This document shows, piece by piece, positions 28,407 to 32,710 of a stretch of 64,000 nt of DNA. Every line of letters begins with the position of its first letter. The stretch's first letter is position 1. The DNA is taken from the NCBI GenBank assembly GCA_016887485.1, contig CP069394.1, forward strand, positions 2,046,001-2,110,000. Reading direction: 5' to 3'. The stretch is from Chloroflexota bacterium. Lineage in GTDB: Bacteria > Chloroflexota > Anaerolineae > Anaerolineales > Anaerolineaceae. The translations under genes were made by a program, and so were the position numbers. The notes beneath the pieces were generated by a model that was not told where the DNA came from, ran no database searches, and worked only from the letters and a program-made list of their open reading frames with translations.

Positions 28407-28498
28407 AATATCACCCTTGATTTTTTACCTTGTTTATTATAAAAAATGGCAAGGAGAACGATCTTACTTTTCGCTCACCTTCCCATTCTTTTGGTAGG

Positions 28499-28572
28499 TC
28501 GGGGTGGGCGGACTTGAACCGCCGACCTCCGCGTCCCAAACGCGGCGCGCTGGCCGACTGCGCTACACCCCG
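28499..28572 (-). tRNA. tRNA-Pro (anticodon TGG)
   Basis: The minus strand folds into a complete cloverleaf: acceptor CGGGGTG/CACCCCG with discriminator A, anticodon stem CCGCG/CGCGG with loop TTTGGGA (anticodon TGG), and T arm GGCGG-TTCAAGT-CCGCC. CCA is not encoded. No other tRNA is seen in the window. Confidence 0.95.
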
Positions 28573-28596
28573 GCAGATAAGAGTATAATCCGAACC

Positions 28597-29535
28597 ATGA
28601 CCAGACGTCAAGCCACCCCCACCTTTCTAATACTGTTGCTTCTCCTGGTGTTGATATTCGCTCTCAGCGCCTGCCAGGGCCAACCCGAATTTGTTGAGAG
28701 CACACCGACGGAAGCGCCTGAGAGTACTTCTCTCTTCAACAGTCCGGCCACTCCAGACACCTCCGAACAGGTCACTGCGGAGCCAATCGAGCCGACCCCC
28801 ACGCCGGATTGTTTGCTGCAGGGTGGAACTGTGACCAGCGAGCAGATCACCAGCGAAGCGCTGGCAACTGACCTGGACTTCGATATCTACCTGCCGCCCT
28901 GTTACGGCACCGATCCCGAAACCCGGTATCCCGTGGTTTATCTACTGCACGGCCTCTCCTACCGCCAGGATCAATGGCAGCGGTTGGGTTTGGTATCAAC
29001 AATGAACGATCTGATCGCAGCAGGTGAGATTCCACCCTTCATCGCAGTGATGCCGCTGGAATCCCCTTTCACCGCACCACAGGTTTCCCAATTCGGCAAA
29101 GCCCTGGTCACAGACCTGATCCCCTGGGTGGATGAGCATTACCTGACCTTGCCGGAAAGGGAGTACCGGACTATAGCCGGTGTTTCCCGCGGCGCGGCCT
29201 GGGCTGTCCATTTGGGCTTTGAGTATTACAACCTTTTCTCAAGAGTTGGGGCCCACAGTTTGCCGCTCTTTGAAGCTGATGCCGGACGTATTCCCAGTTG
29301 GCTGGGCCTTGCGAATGAAGACCTGCCGCTGTTCTTTATTGATATTGGCCGCAATGATCAGGAATGGGTTACGGCTGAGGCCTTCGCCGCTTTGCTGGAC
29401 AAGAATGGCATTCCCCACGAGTGGTATCTGTTCAACGGCGACCACAATGAAGAATATTGGGCCAGTCATCTTGAAACTTACCTCCTCTGGTATTCAGCCG
29501 ATTGGGATGAAGCCCAAGGAAATGAAGTAAAATAA
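28597..29535 (+). CDS. lipoprotein esterase (esterase D-like alpha/beta hydrolase)
   Basis: The 312-residue protein starts MTRRQATPTFLILLLLLVLI, with a lipobox LSAC near residue 28, then a Thr/Pro/Glu-rich linker. The core begins VVYLLHGLSYRQDQW and has the nucleophile elbow GVSRGAAWAVHLGF. The final catalytic His is in DHNEEYWASHL. This is the PF00756 (esterase D / feruloyl esterase) fold; it is probably surface-anchored and acts on acylated sugars or similar esters. The start was chosen because upstream codons fall in the tRNA. Confidence 0.85.
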   Translation: MTRRQATPTFLILLLLLVLIFALSACQGQPEFVESTPTEAPESTSLFNSPATPDTSEQVTAEPIEPTPTPDCLLQGGTVTSEQITSEALATDLDFDIYLPPCYGTDPETRYPVVYLLHGLSYRQDQWQRLGLVSTMNDLIAAGEIPPFIAVMPLESPFTAPQVSQFGKALVTDLIPWVDEHYLTLPEREYRTIAGVSRGAAWAVHLGFEYYNLFSRVGAHSLPLFEADAGRIPSWLGLANEDLPLFFIDIGRNDQEWVTAEAFAALLDKNGIPHEWYLFNGDHNEEYWASHLETYLLWYSADWDEAQGNEVK

Positions 29536-29571: not shown

Positions 29572-29997
29572 ATGTTCCAACAACTGACCATCGTCGGGTA
29601 CCTCGGCAGAGACCCGGAAATGCGGTTCACCCCCGGCGGACAGGCTGTCACCAGTTTATCCGTCGCATCTTCACGCAATTACACCACCAACGCCGGCCAA
29701 AAGGTCGATGAGACCACCTGGTTCCGGGTGTCTGTATGGGGCGCGCAGGCCGAATCCTGCAATCAATATCTGAAGAAGGGCAGCGCCGTCCTGGTGATTG
29801 GCCGTCTGCGTCCCGACCCCGAAACCGGCGGACCGCGCACCTTCACCCGTAATGATGGCACCCCCGGCTCTTCCTACGAAGTCACGGCTCAAACCGTCCG
29901 CTTCCTGCCCTCCAACCGCACAGGCGGTGGTGGCAACTACCAAGAAGACATGGGCGATATGCCAGGGGGCGCAGAGGACGACGAAATCCCCTTCTAG
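29572..29997 (+). CDS. ssb: single-stranded DNA-binding protein
   Basis: The 141-residue protein has an OB-fold (TIVGYLGRDPEMRFTPGG, WFRVSVWG) and ends in the conserved acidic tip DDEIPF, used by SSB to recruit partner proteins. The length is at the short end of the family. A GGGAGA site precedes the ATG. It heads a closely spaced same-strand set: DUF3467 (12 bases downstream), translin and the two Cas4-like genes. Confidence 0.95.
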   Translation: MFQQLTIVGYLGRDPEMRFTPGGQAVTSLSVASSRNYTTNAGQKVDETTWFRVSVWGAQAESCNQYLKKGSAVLVIGRLRPDPETGGPRTFTRNDGTPGSSYEVTAQTVRFLPSNRTGGGGNYQEDMGDMPGGAEDDEIPF

Positions 29998-30009
29998 AAT
30001 GGAGCAATA

Positions 30010-30324
30010 ATGCCCAATCCCATACCGAATTTCATCCTGCCGGATGATTTGGAAGCCCAATATGTCAACTTCGTCCGGATCTCTCATACCGCGGCTGAAT
30101 TTGTGATGGATTTTTCCCTGCTGCTGCCCGGCACCAAGGAACCCACCGTCAATTCCCGAATTGTGATGTCCCCCACAGCGGCCAAGCTCTTTTTAGGCGC
30201 TATGAACGAGAACATCAAACGCTACGAGAACAAATTCGGCCAAATCAGTCTGCCTGGCAGCCACACGCTGGCAGATGAACTATTTCACCCCAACAATGAG
30301 AACCCCGAGAAGCCCAATGGTTGA
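30010..30324 (+). CDS. DUF3467-family protein
   Basis: The 104-residue protein matches the DUF3467 pattern: YVNFVRISHTAAEFVMDF and NSRIVMSPTAAKLFLGAM followed by a helix ENIKRYENKFG. The family is a small alpha/beta domain without known activity. A GGAGC site lies just ahead of the ATG. Its stop overlaps the translin ATG by eight bases, showing that the genes are translated together. Its recurring location beside ssb or nuclease genes is not something I can check here. Confidence 0.8.
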   Translation: MPNPIPNFILPDDLEAQYVNFVRISHTAAEFVMDFSLLLPGTKEPTVNSRIVMSPTAAKLFLGAMNENIKRYENKFGQISLPGSHTLADELFHPNNENPEKPNG

Positions 30325-30973
30325 TATTGAAGAACTTGCCGATCGAATCCGTGAATCATTTGAACGTAAGAACACCATCCGGGATCAGGCCCTGGCGCAA
30401 AGCCGGGTGCTGACCCGCCACGCGGCCCATGCCATTCGCGCCATCCACCGAGAGGACGCCGATTTAGCCCGGGAACATCTTGTGGAAGCCGATAAACTTG
30501 CGACCTCCATCCGAGAGAGCCTGGCCGGTGACCCGGATCTTTATTTCTCCGGCTATGCCCAGGATGCCCTCAAGGAATATTGCGAGGCGCATCTGACCGT
30601 CGCCAGCATTCTGGATGAAGAATGGCCCAGCCCGGAAGACCTCCAGGTGGTTTATGCCACCTATCTGAACGGCCTCTCCGAGGTTGTCGGTGAACTCCGC
30701 CGCCGCATCATGGACATCATCCGCCACGGGCATTCGCCTGAAGTGCAGCGCCTGATGAACGTCATGGAAGACATCTATGCCCAGCTGGTTACCATGGATT
30801 TCCCCGATGCGCTGACCTTTGGCCTCCGTCGCCGGACGGATATCGCCCGCAGCATCATCGAACGAACCCAGGCGGATATCGCCGTTAGTTTCCGCCAACA
30901 GGAACTTGAAAAAACGATTCTGGCCCTTTCAGCGCAGCTTTCTGAAATGGAAGAATCCGATGAAGACGATTAA
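30317..30973 (+). CDS. translin-family nucleic-acid-binding protein (COG2178-like)
   Basis: The 218-residue all-helical protein follows archaeal translin: an N-terminal helix rich in Arg (ALAQSRVLTRHAAHAIRAIH), YFSGYAQDALKEYCEAHL, YLNGLSEVVGELRRRIMDI and MDFPDALTFGLRRRTDIARS. Translins bind single-stranded RNA and DNA as ring-shaped octamers, and with TRAX form the C3PO RNase in eukaryotes; this is the first such gene in an SSB/nuclease set that I recognise. No TRAX-like partner is present. The ATG overlaps the DUF3467 stop, and its end overlaps the next gene by 14 bases. Confidence 0.85.
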   Translation: MVDIEELADRIRESFERKNTIRDQALAQSRVLTRHAAHAIRAIHREDADLAREHLVEADKLATSIRESLAGDPDLYFSGYAQDALKEYCEAHLTVASILDEEWPSPEDLQVVYATYLNGLSEVVGELRRRIMDIIRHGHSPEVQRLMNVMEDIYAQLVTMDFPDALTFGLRRRTDIARSIIERTQADIAVSFRQQELEKTILALSAQLSEMEESDEDD

Positions 30974-31202
30974 CGCATCCGACCTGGGTGCTTATCTCTA
31001 TTGCCAGCGTGCCTGGTGGTACCGGAAAGAGGGGGTTGAATCCGGCAACCAGGAAGCGATGGCAGCCGGAACCCGCCACCACACTTTGCACGGTCGCAAG
31101 GTGTTCATCGCTGGCGGGTTTCGCTTACTAGGCTGGATCCTCCTGCTGGCTGGTCTGGTGGTGCTCACCCTCTATCTCTCGCTGTCCCTCTTCGGCTCAT
31201 GA
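30960..31202 (+). CDS. Cas4-like nuclease, N-terminal half with a membrane helix (80 aa)
   Basis: The protein begins with the Cas4 N-terminal pattern (INASDLGAYLYCQRAWWYRK, where the Cys would be the first Fe-S ligand), then GTRHHTLHGRKV with the His pair that sits near the metal site. It continues into a hydrophobic segment of about 25 residues (GGFRLLGWILLLAGLVVLTL) and stops. The nuclease core is missing and is found in the next gene. Its start overlaps the translin end by 14 bases; its stop overlaps the next ATG (ATGA). Confidence 0.75.
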   Translation: MKTINASDLGAYLYCQRAWWYRKEGVESGNQEAMAAGTRHHTLHGRKVFIAGGFRLLGWILLLAGLVVLTLYLSLSLFGS

Positions 31203-31717
31203 TCTGGTACGCATTAGCCCTGATAGCGGCTGCGGTCCTTTTCCTCTGGCTGGCTAATCGCCAGCGCCGTCAGTCTGGCCTCCCCGCAGGGCGGATCAGC
31301 TACGCGGACGTGGGCGAATGGCAGCCTAACCACCAGGCGCTTTATGATCCCAAGCTGGGATTGGCCGGAAAGCCGGATTACCTGGTTTATGTCAACAGCA
31401 CGCCGGTACCAGTGGAGGTCAAATCCGGCCGAACACCAGCCGCGCCCTATGATTCACACATCATCCAACTGGCCGCCTATTGCTATCTGGTGGAAGTGAC
31501 CACCGGCAAGATGCCGCCCTATGGCCTGCTGCGTTACCCCAAGGAAACCTTTGAAATTGACTATACGCCGGAACTGAGGGAGGAACTTTTAGCATTGGTG
31601 GAAGCCATTCGCTCCGAATCACGCCGCCGGACCCCACCGGAACGTTCGCATGACAACGCCCGTCGTTGTTCAGGATGTGGCTACCGGGAGACCTGTGATC
31701 AGCGGTTGAAAATGTAA
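31199..31717 (+). CDS. Cas4-like nuclease, C-terminal half with a membrane helix (172 aa)
   Basis: An N-terminal hydrophobic helix (about residues 3-20) is followed by the PD-(D/E)XK core: GLAGKPDYLVYV (Asp), VPVEVKSGRT (ExK) and the QxxxY-like IIQLAAYCYLVEV. It ends with CSGCGYRETC, the three remaining Fe-S cysteines of Cas4/Dna2-type nucleases. Read with the preceding gene, it completes a Cas4-like fold split between two membrane-anchored chains, probably assembling at the membrane. It starts at an ATGA overlap in a different frame, so a frameshift of a once-single gene is an alternative. Confidence 0.82.
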   Translation: MIWYALALIAAAVLFLWLANRQRRQSGLPAGRISYADVGEWQPNHQALYDPKLGLAGKPDYLVYVNSTPVPVEVKSGRTPAAPYDSHIIQLAAYCYLVEVTTGKMPPYGLLRYPKETFEIDYTPELREELLALVEAIRSESRRRTPPERSHDNARRCSGCGYRETCDQRLKM

Positions 31718-31730
31718 CAGGGATAACTCC

Positions 31731-32710
31731 TCATCCGGCACTGCGTGCCACCTTCCCCCCAGGGGGAAGGCTTAATTTTGTCATTTCGAGGGAACATCCT
31801 TCGGATGCGACGACATCGTCCCCAAAGTGAAGCAGCGTGGGAAGTAGTCTCGTAGCAAAGTAACTAATCCTATTCGTCACGCTGGAAACATAACCAACAA
31901 AACTTTTCCCAAAATTTACAATAGAACACGTAGGTCATGTATGGTGAGACCAAGGGTCGAACCTACGTGACATTATTTTGTCACGCTGGAAGCGTGACCT
32001 ACCAGATACTCACCTTGTTCCCTTTCACCAAAAAACGTGTTAGACCTACATTTCCCTTCATCTGGCACTGCGTGCCAACTTCCCCCAAAGGGGAAGGCTT
32101 AATTTTGTCATTGCGAGAGAATATCCAAAGAATGCGACGACATCGTCCCCAAAGTGAAACAGCGTGGGAAGCAATCTCGTGGCGCACAATCCTTCGTCAC
32201 GCTGGAAGCATGACCAACAAAACTTTTCCCAAAATTTACAATAGAACACGTAGGTCACGTATGGTGAGACCAAGGGCCTCACCATACGTGACATTCTTTT
32301 GTAACGCTGGAAGCGTGACCTACCAGATACTCACCTTGTTCCCTTTCACCAAAAAACGTGTTAGACCTACATTTCCCTTCATCTGGCACTGCGTGCCACC
32401 TTCCCCCTAGGGGGAAGGCTTAATTTTGTCATTTCGAGGGAACATCCTTCGGATGCGACGACATCGTCCCCAAAGTGAAGCAGCGTGGGAAGCAATCTCG
32501 TGGCGCACAATCCTTCGTCACGCTGGAAGCATGACCAACAAAACTTTTCCCAAAATTTACAATAGAACACGGAGGTCACGTATGGTGAGACCAAGGGGCG
32601 AACCTACGTGACATTATTTTGTCACGCTGGAAGCGTGACCTACAAACTACAACCCCTCATACCCCGCCAAACTCAGCTTGTTCCCTTTCATTACAAAACG
32701 TGTTAGACTC
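31731..32710. repeat. three tandem copies of an approximately 320-bp intergenic unit
   Basis: Unit starts fall near 31736, 32058 and 32378 (periods 320 and 321); the third is truncated near 32710. Each unit concatenates a family C hairpin (CTGGCACTGCGTGCC..CTTCCCC), a family B element (GTCATTGCGAG..GAAGCAATCTCG), a family A palindrome (TAGGTCACG..GCGTGACCTAC) and the tail ATACTCACCTTGTTCCC. Copies differ by scattered substitutions. This fills the gap between the Cas4-like gene and the M23 peptidase; no coding gene or direct CRISPR-type spacing is present. Confidence 0.9.

Follow-up and report, generated by a model that had tools for sequence, protein, structure and literature searches.

Why should a bacterium encode a Cas4-type nuclease in two pieces, each with its own membrane helix, directly behind genes for a single-stranded DNA-binding protein (SSB), a DUF3467 protein and a translin homologue? 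The question is raised by a five-gene locus of a Chloroflexota bacterium (class Anaerolineae), situated in the 64,000-nucleotide (nt) stretch of contig CP069394.1 (assembly GCA_016887485.1, positions 2,046,001 to 2,110,000) that was analysed as a whole and is called the window here. An earlier note, made from the sequence of this stretch, had described five packed genes on one strand, with a gap of 12 nt followed by overlaps of 8, 14 and 4 nt. The coordinates of the five plus-strand open reading frames (ORFs) agree with this spacing, the profile matches of each gene bear out the ssb, DUF3467, translin and Cas4-type identities assigned there, and the five-gene operon had been read correctly. 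We consider it likely that the last two genes, whose products are called the N-half and the C-half below, encode the subunits of a single nuclease of the Cas4 family (RecB-like, Fe-S), which is split at a membrane hairpin, tethered to the membrane and active on single-strand DNA.

Complementary Cas4 parts on two chains

Cas4 is a much-studied nuclease of CRISPR adaptation. The N-half matches only positions 1–40 of the cas4 model TIGR00372 (E-value 1.6e-4; 21.5 bits, which is below the cut-off when taken alone), and the C-half only positions 61–178 (69.5 bits against a cut-off of 65). Profiles of the two halves likewise match non-overlapping parts of the solved Cas4 chain 8d3l_I, residues 4–49 (E 0.006) for the N-half and 102–201 (E 5e-7) for the C-half. 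The C-half of the window matches the Pfam family Cas_Cas4 (PF01930) at 48.3 bits (cut-off 22.7, E 1.5e-12), and the same family is matched by 11 of 24 aligned N-half members at E up to 0.1. Judged by these matches to PF01930 and TIGR00372, both halves belong to the Cas4 family by descent.

The conserved residues of the two proteins are complementary in the same manner. Cys15, Gly37, His41 and His44 are invariant in the 24-row alignment of N-halves, and P59-D60-Y61, E73, K75, Q90, Y94, C157, C160 and C166 in the 26-row alignment of C-halves. Together they make up what we take to be the Cas4 set, namely a metal site of His, Asp and ExK, the QxxxY motif and a [4Fe-4S] cluster held by four cysteines. 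This motif set is spread over two chains, the metal-site His (H41) being on the N-half, and D60, ExK (E73/K75) and QxxxY (Q90/Y94) on the C-half; the four cysteines, predicted ligands of the cluster, are divided between C15 on the N-half and C157/C160/C166 on the C-half. An AlphaFold model of the C-half (mean predicted local distance difference test score, pLDDT, 77.7) matches Cas4 7mi4 (Z 12.7, root-mean-square deviation (rmsd) 3.9, 111 residues aligned), followed by MGME1, type I-C Cas4, AdnA and Dna2, and its predicted core is of this Cas4/MGME1/AdnA/Dna2 type. The match begins about 60 residues into the Cas4 chains (66–181 in 7mi4, 59–182 in 8d3l), that is, after the part of Cas4 which the N-half matches.

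One strong hydrophobic stretch is located at the split end of each half (95 of 96 N-halves and 85 of 88 C-halves scored), the exceptions without a hydrophobic helix being a contig-end fragment and loci L192, L196 and L197. Topology was estimated by simple hydropathy and the positive-inside tendency rather than by a dedicated predictor, with Lys and Arg counted in equal windows of 8 residues on either side of the helix in both halves. The mean count falls from 1.78 before the helix to 0.42 after it in N-halves (before exceeds after in 82 of 96, the reverse in 2), and rises from 0.41 to 2.99 in C-halves (after exceeds before in 84 of 88, the reverse in none). From this bias the soluble parts of both halves are predicted to be cytoplasmic, and both proteins are probably located in the membrane. 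The split Cas4-like nuclease with membrane helices that had been proposed for this locus is well matched by one hydrophobic helix per half and by halves that cover complementary parts of the cas4 model.

Could the C-half be a complete solo-Cas4, and the N-half a small membrane protein without relation to it that just happens to go with it? By itself it exceeds the curated cas4 cut-off and gives a usable core model, with the bit score and pLDDT stated above. The N-half, however, matches the region of the same cas4 models that the C-half lacks, supplies the Cys and His absent from the C-half, and accompanies it even where the two genes are unlinked, which makes this explanation very unlikely.

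Distribution of the split pair and its altered forms

The class sample comprised 150 genomes from 51 families, the window genome included. C-half matches of at least 97 bits were retained (106 genomes, among them G100, in which masked bases cut the C-half, and G107, which has a fusion), and matches of 43–71 bits were left out as presumed ordinary Cas4. Both halves were found in 105 of the 150 genomes (104 split, 1 fused), the C-half only in one, the N-half only in one and neither in 43 (Fisher p 2e-35, uncorrected for shared ancestry). The lone C-half (G043) lies 300 bases from a contig end, and the lone N-half (G044) comes from a genome that is 82% complete.

The distance between the halves varies widely: 49 of the 105 pairs lie within 250 nt (G107 included), 27 have 658–2470 nt between them, and 29 are unlinked, two of these being far apart on one contig and 27 on different contigs. 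The halves are 5.5 kb apart on one contig in G084 and 2.8 Mb apart in G010, a single contig of 3.3 Mb (about 0.5 Mb by the shorter way if it is circular). Contig breaks could explain some of the 27 pairs on different contigs. No C-half match occurs, however, in 14 N-half loci inspected with flanks of at least 3.5 kb on both sides or in 7 translin loci for which at least 4 kb of downstream sequence was available, so that direct inspection shows 21 of the 29 pairs to be unlinked; the Cys and His are retained, as judged by eye, in all 14 N-halves fetched away from a C-half.

This variation bears on the idea that the split is a frameshift, a sequencing error or a decaying pseudogene, or that programmed frameshifting or read-through of a stop yields one joined product. 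In its favour, the window and most near relatives have a 4-nt overlap in the -1 frame (7 of 9 window and near-relative pairs), and four loci (L050, L056, L067, L105) have the halves in one frame with a single stop between them. Spacing and relative frame are not constant, however: the 49 pairs within 250 nt fall into the three relative frames as 23, 17 and 9, and among the nine same-frame pairs, which include the fusion G107, eight have separate open frames and only G107 has one. Together with the 27 genomes that have 0.66–2.5 kb between the halves, the 29 unlinked pairs (21 of them flank-checked, at least 3.5 kb) and the motifs invariant in both alignments, this refutes the idea for the family and leaves it next to no probability.

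The same arrangement is found beyond the class. In a phylum survey, an N-half lies upstream in 27 of 30 C-half places (a few of them from the same genomes) and none of these shares the frame; in the other three (G041, G003 and G237, the last at a contig start) the N-half is on another contig. In the phylum sample of 251 genomes, where the count of C-halves uses a threshold of at least 157 bits, all 48 genomes with such a C-half have an N-half. Genomes with a C-half of 100–142 bits have one in 14 of 19 cases at E 1e-5 or better, and N-halves without such a C-half occur in G183 (76-bit C match) and G205 (no C match). The split characterizes this Cas4 lineage phylum-wide and is not local, and the halves are often unlinked. 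A tblastn search of PLSDB plasmids with the C-half gave no match.

Among these pairs, the canonical one-polypeptide architecture of Cas4 was not encountered in an unaltered form. All 41 pairs first examined beside translin, the window included, are split, and the only one-ORF forms among the fetched loci are L196 (G169), which is joined through a membrane hairpin, and L283 (G107), which has no membrane helices. Both have changed catalytic residues, PDY being replaced by PAY and EVK by DIK in L196, and the Glu of ExK being replaced in L283; L197, a split relative of one fused form, is altered likewise. The natural membrane-hairpin fusion L196 supports a split at the hairpin. Locus L194 is interrupted by a stop. 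In a further branch (L193, L198, L199 and L200) both halves are present and the C-half reads GRC[DE]x, PVEQK and Q-V-G-A-L, against the usual GKPDY, PVEVK and Q-L-A-A-Y, the sequence of L199 not having been read as far as the last segment. The acidic-Glu-Lys-Gln positions of this branch are kept, the surrounding residues differ and the Tyr of QxxxY is gone; to go by these replacements, its activity may differ.

Several points weigh against the two-subunit enzyme. The N-half is short, about 80 amino acids (aa), and the window copy has no match in a Pfam profile search, because of which it is easily missed. The absences counted above are upper estimates, because scoring was limited to the best first-look candidates of each genome (at most 23 for the C-half and 36 for the N-half), and the co-occurrence statistic lacks a correction for shared ancestry. 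Two genomes of the same genus, G305 and G335, have translin and neither half was found in them, which implies that the enzyme is dispensable. Given the altered fusions and L197, some copies may not be nucleases. From the homology of both halves, their complementary motifs, their co-occurrence, the split architecture and the gene context, all of them observed, we nevertheless infer that the two proteins form a physical heterodimer with nuclease activity.

Translin and the other neighbours

The genes of the operon are listed in Table 1. The window genome (2.9 Mb, two contigs) is 95% complete.

Table 1. Genes of the five-gene operon, with positions in the window
Feature	Position	Strand	Evidence
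ssb paralogue, 141 aa, acidic tip DDEIPF	29572..29997	+	Pfam SSB 2e-26; sequence
DUF3467 protein, 104 aa	30010..30324	+	PF11950 3.1e-18; own-genome search; predicted fold
Translin/Trax-family protein, 218 aa	30317..30973	+	AfTrax 3zc1 3.2e-22; E87, E90, E122 conserved
Cas4 N-half, 80 aa: Cys15, Gly37, His41, His44, then predicted C-terminal membrane helix	30960..31202	+	TIGR00372 positions 1-40; invariant alignment columns; 8d3l_I 4-49
Cas4 C-half, 172 aa: predicted N-terminal membrane helix, G57, P59-D60-Y61, E73-x-K75, Q90..Y94, Cys157/160/166	31199..31717	+	Pfam Cas_Cas4 1.5e-12; TIGR00372 61-178; 7mi4 Z 12.7

The translin protein falls just below the curated Pfam Translin cut-off (25.4 bits against 25.9, E 1.6e-5) and below that of the NF011160 equivalog model (231.5 against 291). 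Its closest solved relatives are the archaeal AfTrax (3zc1, 82.7 bits, 3.2e-22) and NEQ131, and its closest named relative in the collection searched is L031, an Anaerolineaceae metagenome-assembled genome with 90% identity in this protein. The archaeal translin/Trax proteins (AfTrax 3zc0/3zc1, NEQ131 5jr9) are of the same family and size and have the same E-x-x-E-A motif; Trax and translin are known to form octameric rings that bind nucleic acid. E87, E90 and E122 are kept in 153 of 153 ungapped translin rows; the third of these positions is Glu in every one of these rows, and it aligns with the Asp in which 3zc1 and 3zc0 are not alike. It is therefore plausible that the window protein has an acidic site of the Trax type, if the catalytic triad of Trax is, as we assume, an acidic one.

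Among the partners, the operon SSB matches the OB-fold SSB profile PF00436 at 92.5 bits (cut-off 26). The window genome has four SSB-type places, of which the operon gene is not the best-scoring, and because of this number we regard it as a paralogue. Two further SSB-type frames stand in tandem elsewhere in this genome, outside the window (G000:C1:1383798-1384519). The DUF3467 protein (66 bits against a cut-off of 25 for PF11950) was found as a single copy in an own-genome search, and a sequence search of the PDB gave no match for it. Its model has a predicted beta-beta-beta-alpha fold (mean pLDDT 72.9), for which the best Foldseek match is a weak one, 4bhm (E 0.33, probability 0.77). Fold comparisons are likewise weak and tied, with COMMD 8f2r at Z 4.3 (rmsd 3.5, 62 aligned), Pur-alpha 3nm7 at Z 3.8 (3.0, 60) and the PC4 homologue 5a4o at Z 3.5 (3.0, 60). 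The protein may be a single-strand binder, the PC4 and Pur-alpha matches being weak and tied with others.

Translin had been described as mainly archaeal and eukaryotic. It was found in 136 of the 150 class genomes and 139 of the 251 phylum-sample genomes, with matches in 3 archaea among 14 control genomes, and is close to a core gene in the class. Neighbourhoods were sampled as the flanks of the best translin match in all 136 translin-positive class genomes. Downstream of translin, the N-half is present in 70 of the 136 (30 families) and both halves in 55 (26 families); upstream, DUF3467 is present in 40 (19 families) and ssb in 28 (12 families). Among loci with enough flank, both halves are present in 44, the N-half only in 7 and neither in 60 of 111 downstream flanks, and DUF3467 in 37 and ssb in 24 of 119 upstream flanks. 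No partner match in another order or on the opposite strand was listed among the 136 loci, and no locus has an adjacent C-half without an N-half. The synteny and the translin-Cas4 link recur in many families, and the condition that the earlier note had named as refuting its reading, genes that are not neighbours in relatives, is not borne out. Its five-gene module stands only in part, since all five genes are together at 7 of the 136 loci; an obligate five-gene complex is unsupported on this count. Two further observations speak against a tight module: the loci L032-L039 (translin 69–76% identical) have ssb-DUF3467-translin and no Cas4 in the fetched flanks, and in six order-mates (G027, G061, G089, G111, G130 and G148) the pair lies away from translin, by 10 kb in G130. 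In the window itself, the overlaps indicate that ssb, DUF3467 and translin are co-transcribed with the Cas4 halves.

It might be argued that the unit is directed at RNA, with translin as a Trax-like RNase at its core and the nuclease, SSB and DUF3467 as incidental operon mates. Translin is commoner than any of its partners, and of 100 translin loci whose flanks are long enough on both sides, 28 are without any of the four and five have all. Against this, both halves occur in 103 of 136 translin-positive and only 2 of 14 translin-negative genomes (p 9e-6, uncorrected), where one of the two is the altered fusion G107 and several of the 14 genomes are incomplete. The N-half, moreover, always follows translin on the same strand and in the same order where it is adjacent (the 70 loci from 30 families), and it stays beside translin in 13 of the 29 genomes with the C-half elsewhere, 7 of which have at least 4 kb after translin. 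Such a unit appears unlikely to us.

The neighbours of the Cas4 halves themselves are also recurrent. A gene for an L,D-transpeptidase (YkuD) lies between the halves in all 25 fetched loci with at least 500 nt of separation (L054, L055, L060, L061 and L064 among them). At 11 loci of another branch (L202-L204, L207, L221-L227), the gene immediately upstream of the N-half encodes an M50 (site-2 type) protease with PDZ domains, and such a protease beside a membrane-anchored nuclease might act by regulated intramembrane cleavage. Of 57 loci with 3.5 kb of sequence downstream of the C-half, 16 have nadK and/or recN there; these genes were considered as a constant partner and rejected on this number, being present also at 8 of 63 translin loci without a C-half.

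Two observations concern the surroundings of the operon in the window. The roughly 1 kb on its 3' side (31731-32708) contains direct repeats that recur about every 321 nt, two copies of 300 nt being 95% identical, and ORFs in this stretch are probably spurious. On the minus strand, a tRNA-Pro(TGG) at 28497-28572 overlaps the longest possible start of an upstream esterase-family ORF (28504-29535), whose true start is probably near 28597.

Relation to known nucleases and possible role

The earlier note had argued against CRISPR adaptation, and the surveys agree. The cas1 profile has no match in the window genome, and both halves occur in 64 of 90 cas1-positive and 41 of 60 cas1-negative class genomes (p 0.72). 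A role in adaptation is rejected on these grounds, and on the same grounds the pair counts as a solo-Cas4. A known defence system was also considered and rejected: PADLOC has no match for genes 1 to 3, and what it gives for genes 4 and 5 are only Cas4-type or PD-(D/E)XK cross-matches (DruK, Cas1b, Cas1g).

CRISPR Cas4 (type I-C 8d3l; Cas4/Cas1 fusion 7mi4) shares with the pair its core fold, the D-ExK-QxxxY motifs and the number and order of the cysteines. It is a single polypeptide, whereas the Chloroflexota form has two chains, each with a predicted membrane helix, and no link to cas1. Exonucleases of the MGME1, AdnA and Dna2 type have the same nuclease core (MGME1 8xa9, Z 10.5, rmsd 3.1, 110 aligned; AdnA 9np6, Z 9.9, rmsd 4.6, 114 aligned); in contrast to them, the Chloroflexota pair is without a helicase domain, split and predicted to be anchored in the membrane. 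Solo-Cas4 is described, in the parts of the paper retrieved, as ‘present and monophyletic in ... many Chloroflexi’ (Hudaiberdiev et al. 2017, PMC5704561), and the split pair probably represents this same lineage. The words ‘split’, ‘transmembrane’ and ‘translin’ are absent from the main text of that paper, which under those words describes neither the split nor the link to translin. The excerpts retrieved on translin in Chloroflexi concern SepRS operons with an archaeal TRAX gene, and in the open-licence PMC literature no description was found of a split membrane Cas4, of a Cas4-translin link or of a Chloroflexi Cas4-RecN link, and nothing related turned up for DUF3467. The split Cas4 is real, conserved and, as far as searched, undescribed; it is a variant of the Cas4 family and not a new kind of enzyme.

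How might such an enzyme operate? The N-subunit would give the first cluster Cys and the metal-site His, and the C-subunit the Asp-Glu-Lys core, QxxxY and three Cys. Single helices of opposite topology (N-in/C-out and N-out/C-in) would keep both soluble parts at the cytoplasmic face, and the chains would meet at the inner membrane, where they would complete the [4Fe-4S] cluster and the metal site. By homology with its nearest families, the pair would act at the membrane on the ends of single-stranded DNA, degrading or trimming them. The strand would be covered by the ssb paralogue, and translin would have RNA or single strands as its substrate within this pathway. Homology and context suggest a single-strand nucleic-acid processing module much as originally conceived, though one with a looser composition.

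The purpose of this activity can be seen in two ways, between which sequence does not separate. The enzyme may act on incoming DNA during transformation or phage injection, as an exonuclease at the membrane face with SSB at the entry site. This would accord with the predicted membrane anchor and cytoplasmic soluble parts, with the L,D-transpeptidase, a member of a cell-wall enzyme family, between the separated halves, and with the defence or repair roles suggested for solo-Cas4 in the retrieved parts of PMC5704561. Genes 1 to 4, however, match no defence family other than Cas4, and gene 5 gives only nuclease-superfamily cross-matches (such as DruK); no competence or defence gene is found among the ten Pfam-named recurrent neighbour clusters, most clusters being unnamed; and the presence of the pair does not track cas1. 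We see action at the entry site as somewhat unlikely. The presence of ssb, and of recN downstream in part of the lineages, inclines us slightly towards repair, and we propose a role of the two-subunit nuclease in DNA end processing or repair only tentatively, at less than even confidence.

To our knowledge, no settled job has been assigned to the non-CRISPR forms of Cas4. It is nearly an even question to us whether this Fe-S nuclease of the Chloroflexota is an obligate two-gene, membrane-anchored enzyme that builds both its cluster and its active site from two chains, the genes for which can lie hundreds of kilobases from each other. The split would then put the DNA-cutting centre under the control of co-assembly at the membrane, and through the L,D-transpeptidase, the M50 protease and translin the processing of single-strand DNA would depend on how the envelope fares. 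If true, this would be a new architecture for the nuclease superfamily, found phylum-wide, with Fe-S ligands from both chains. The two genes, their co-occurrence and the link to translin offer a handle on the function of both solo-Cas4 and bacterial translin.

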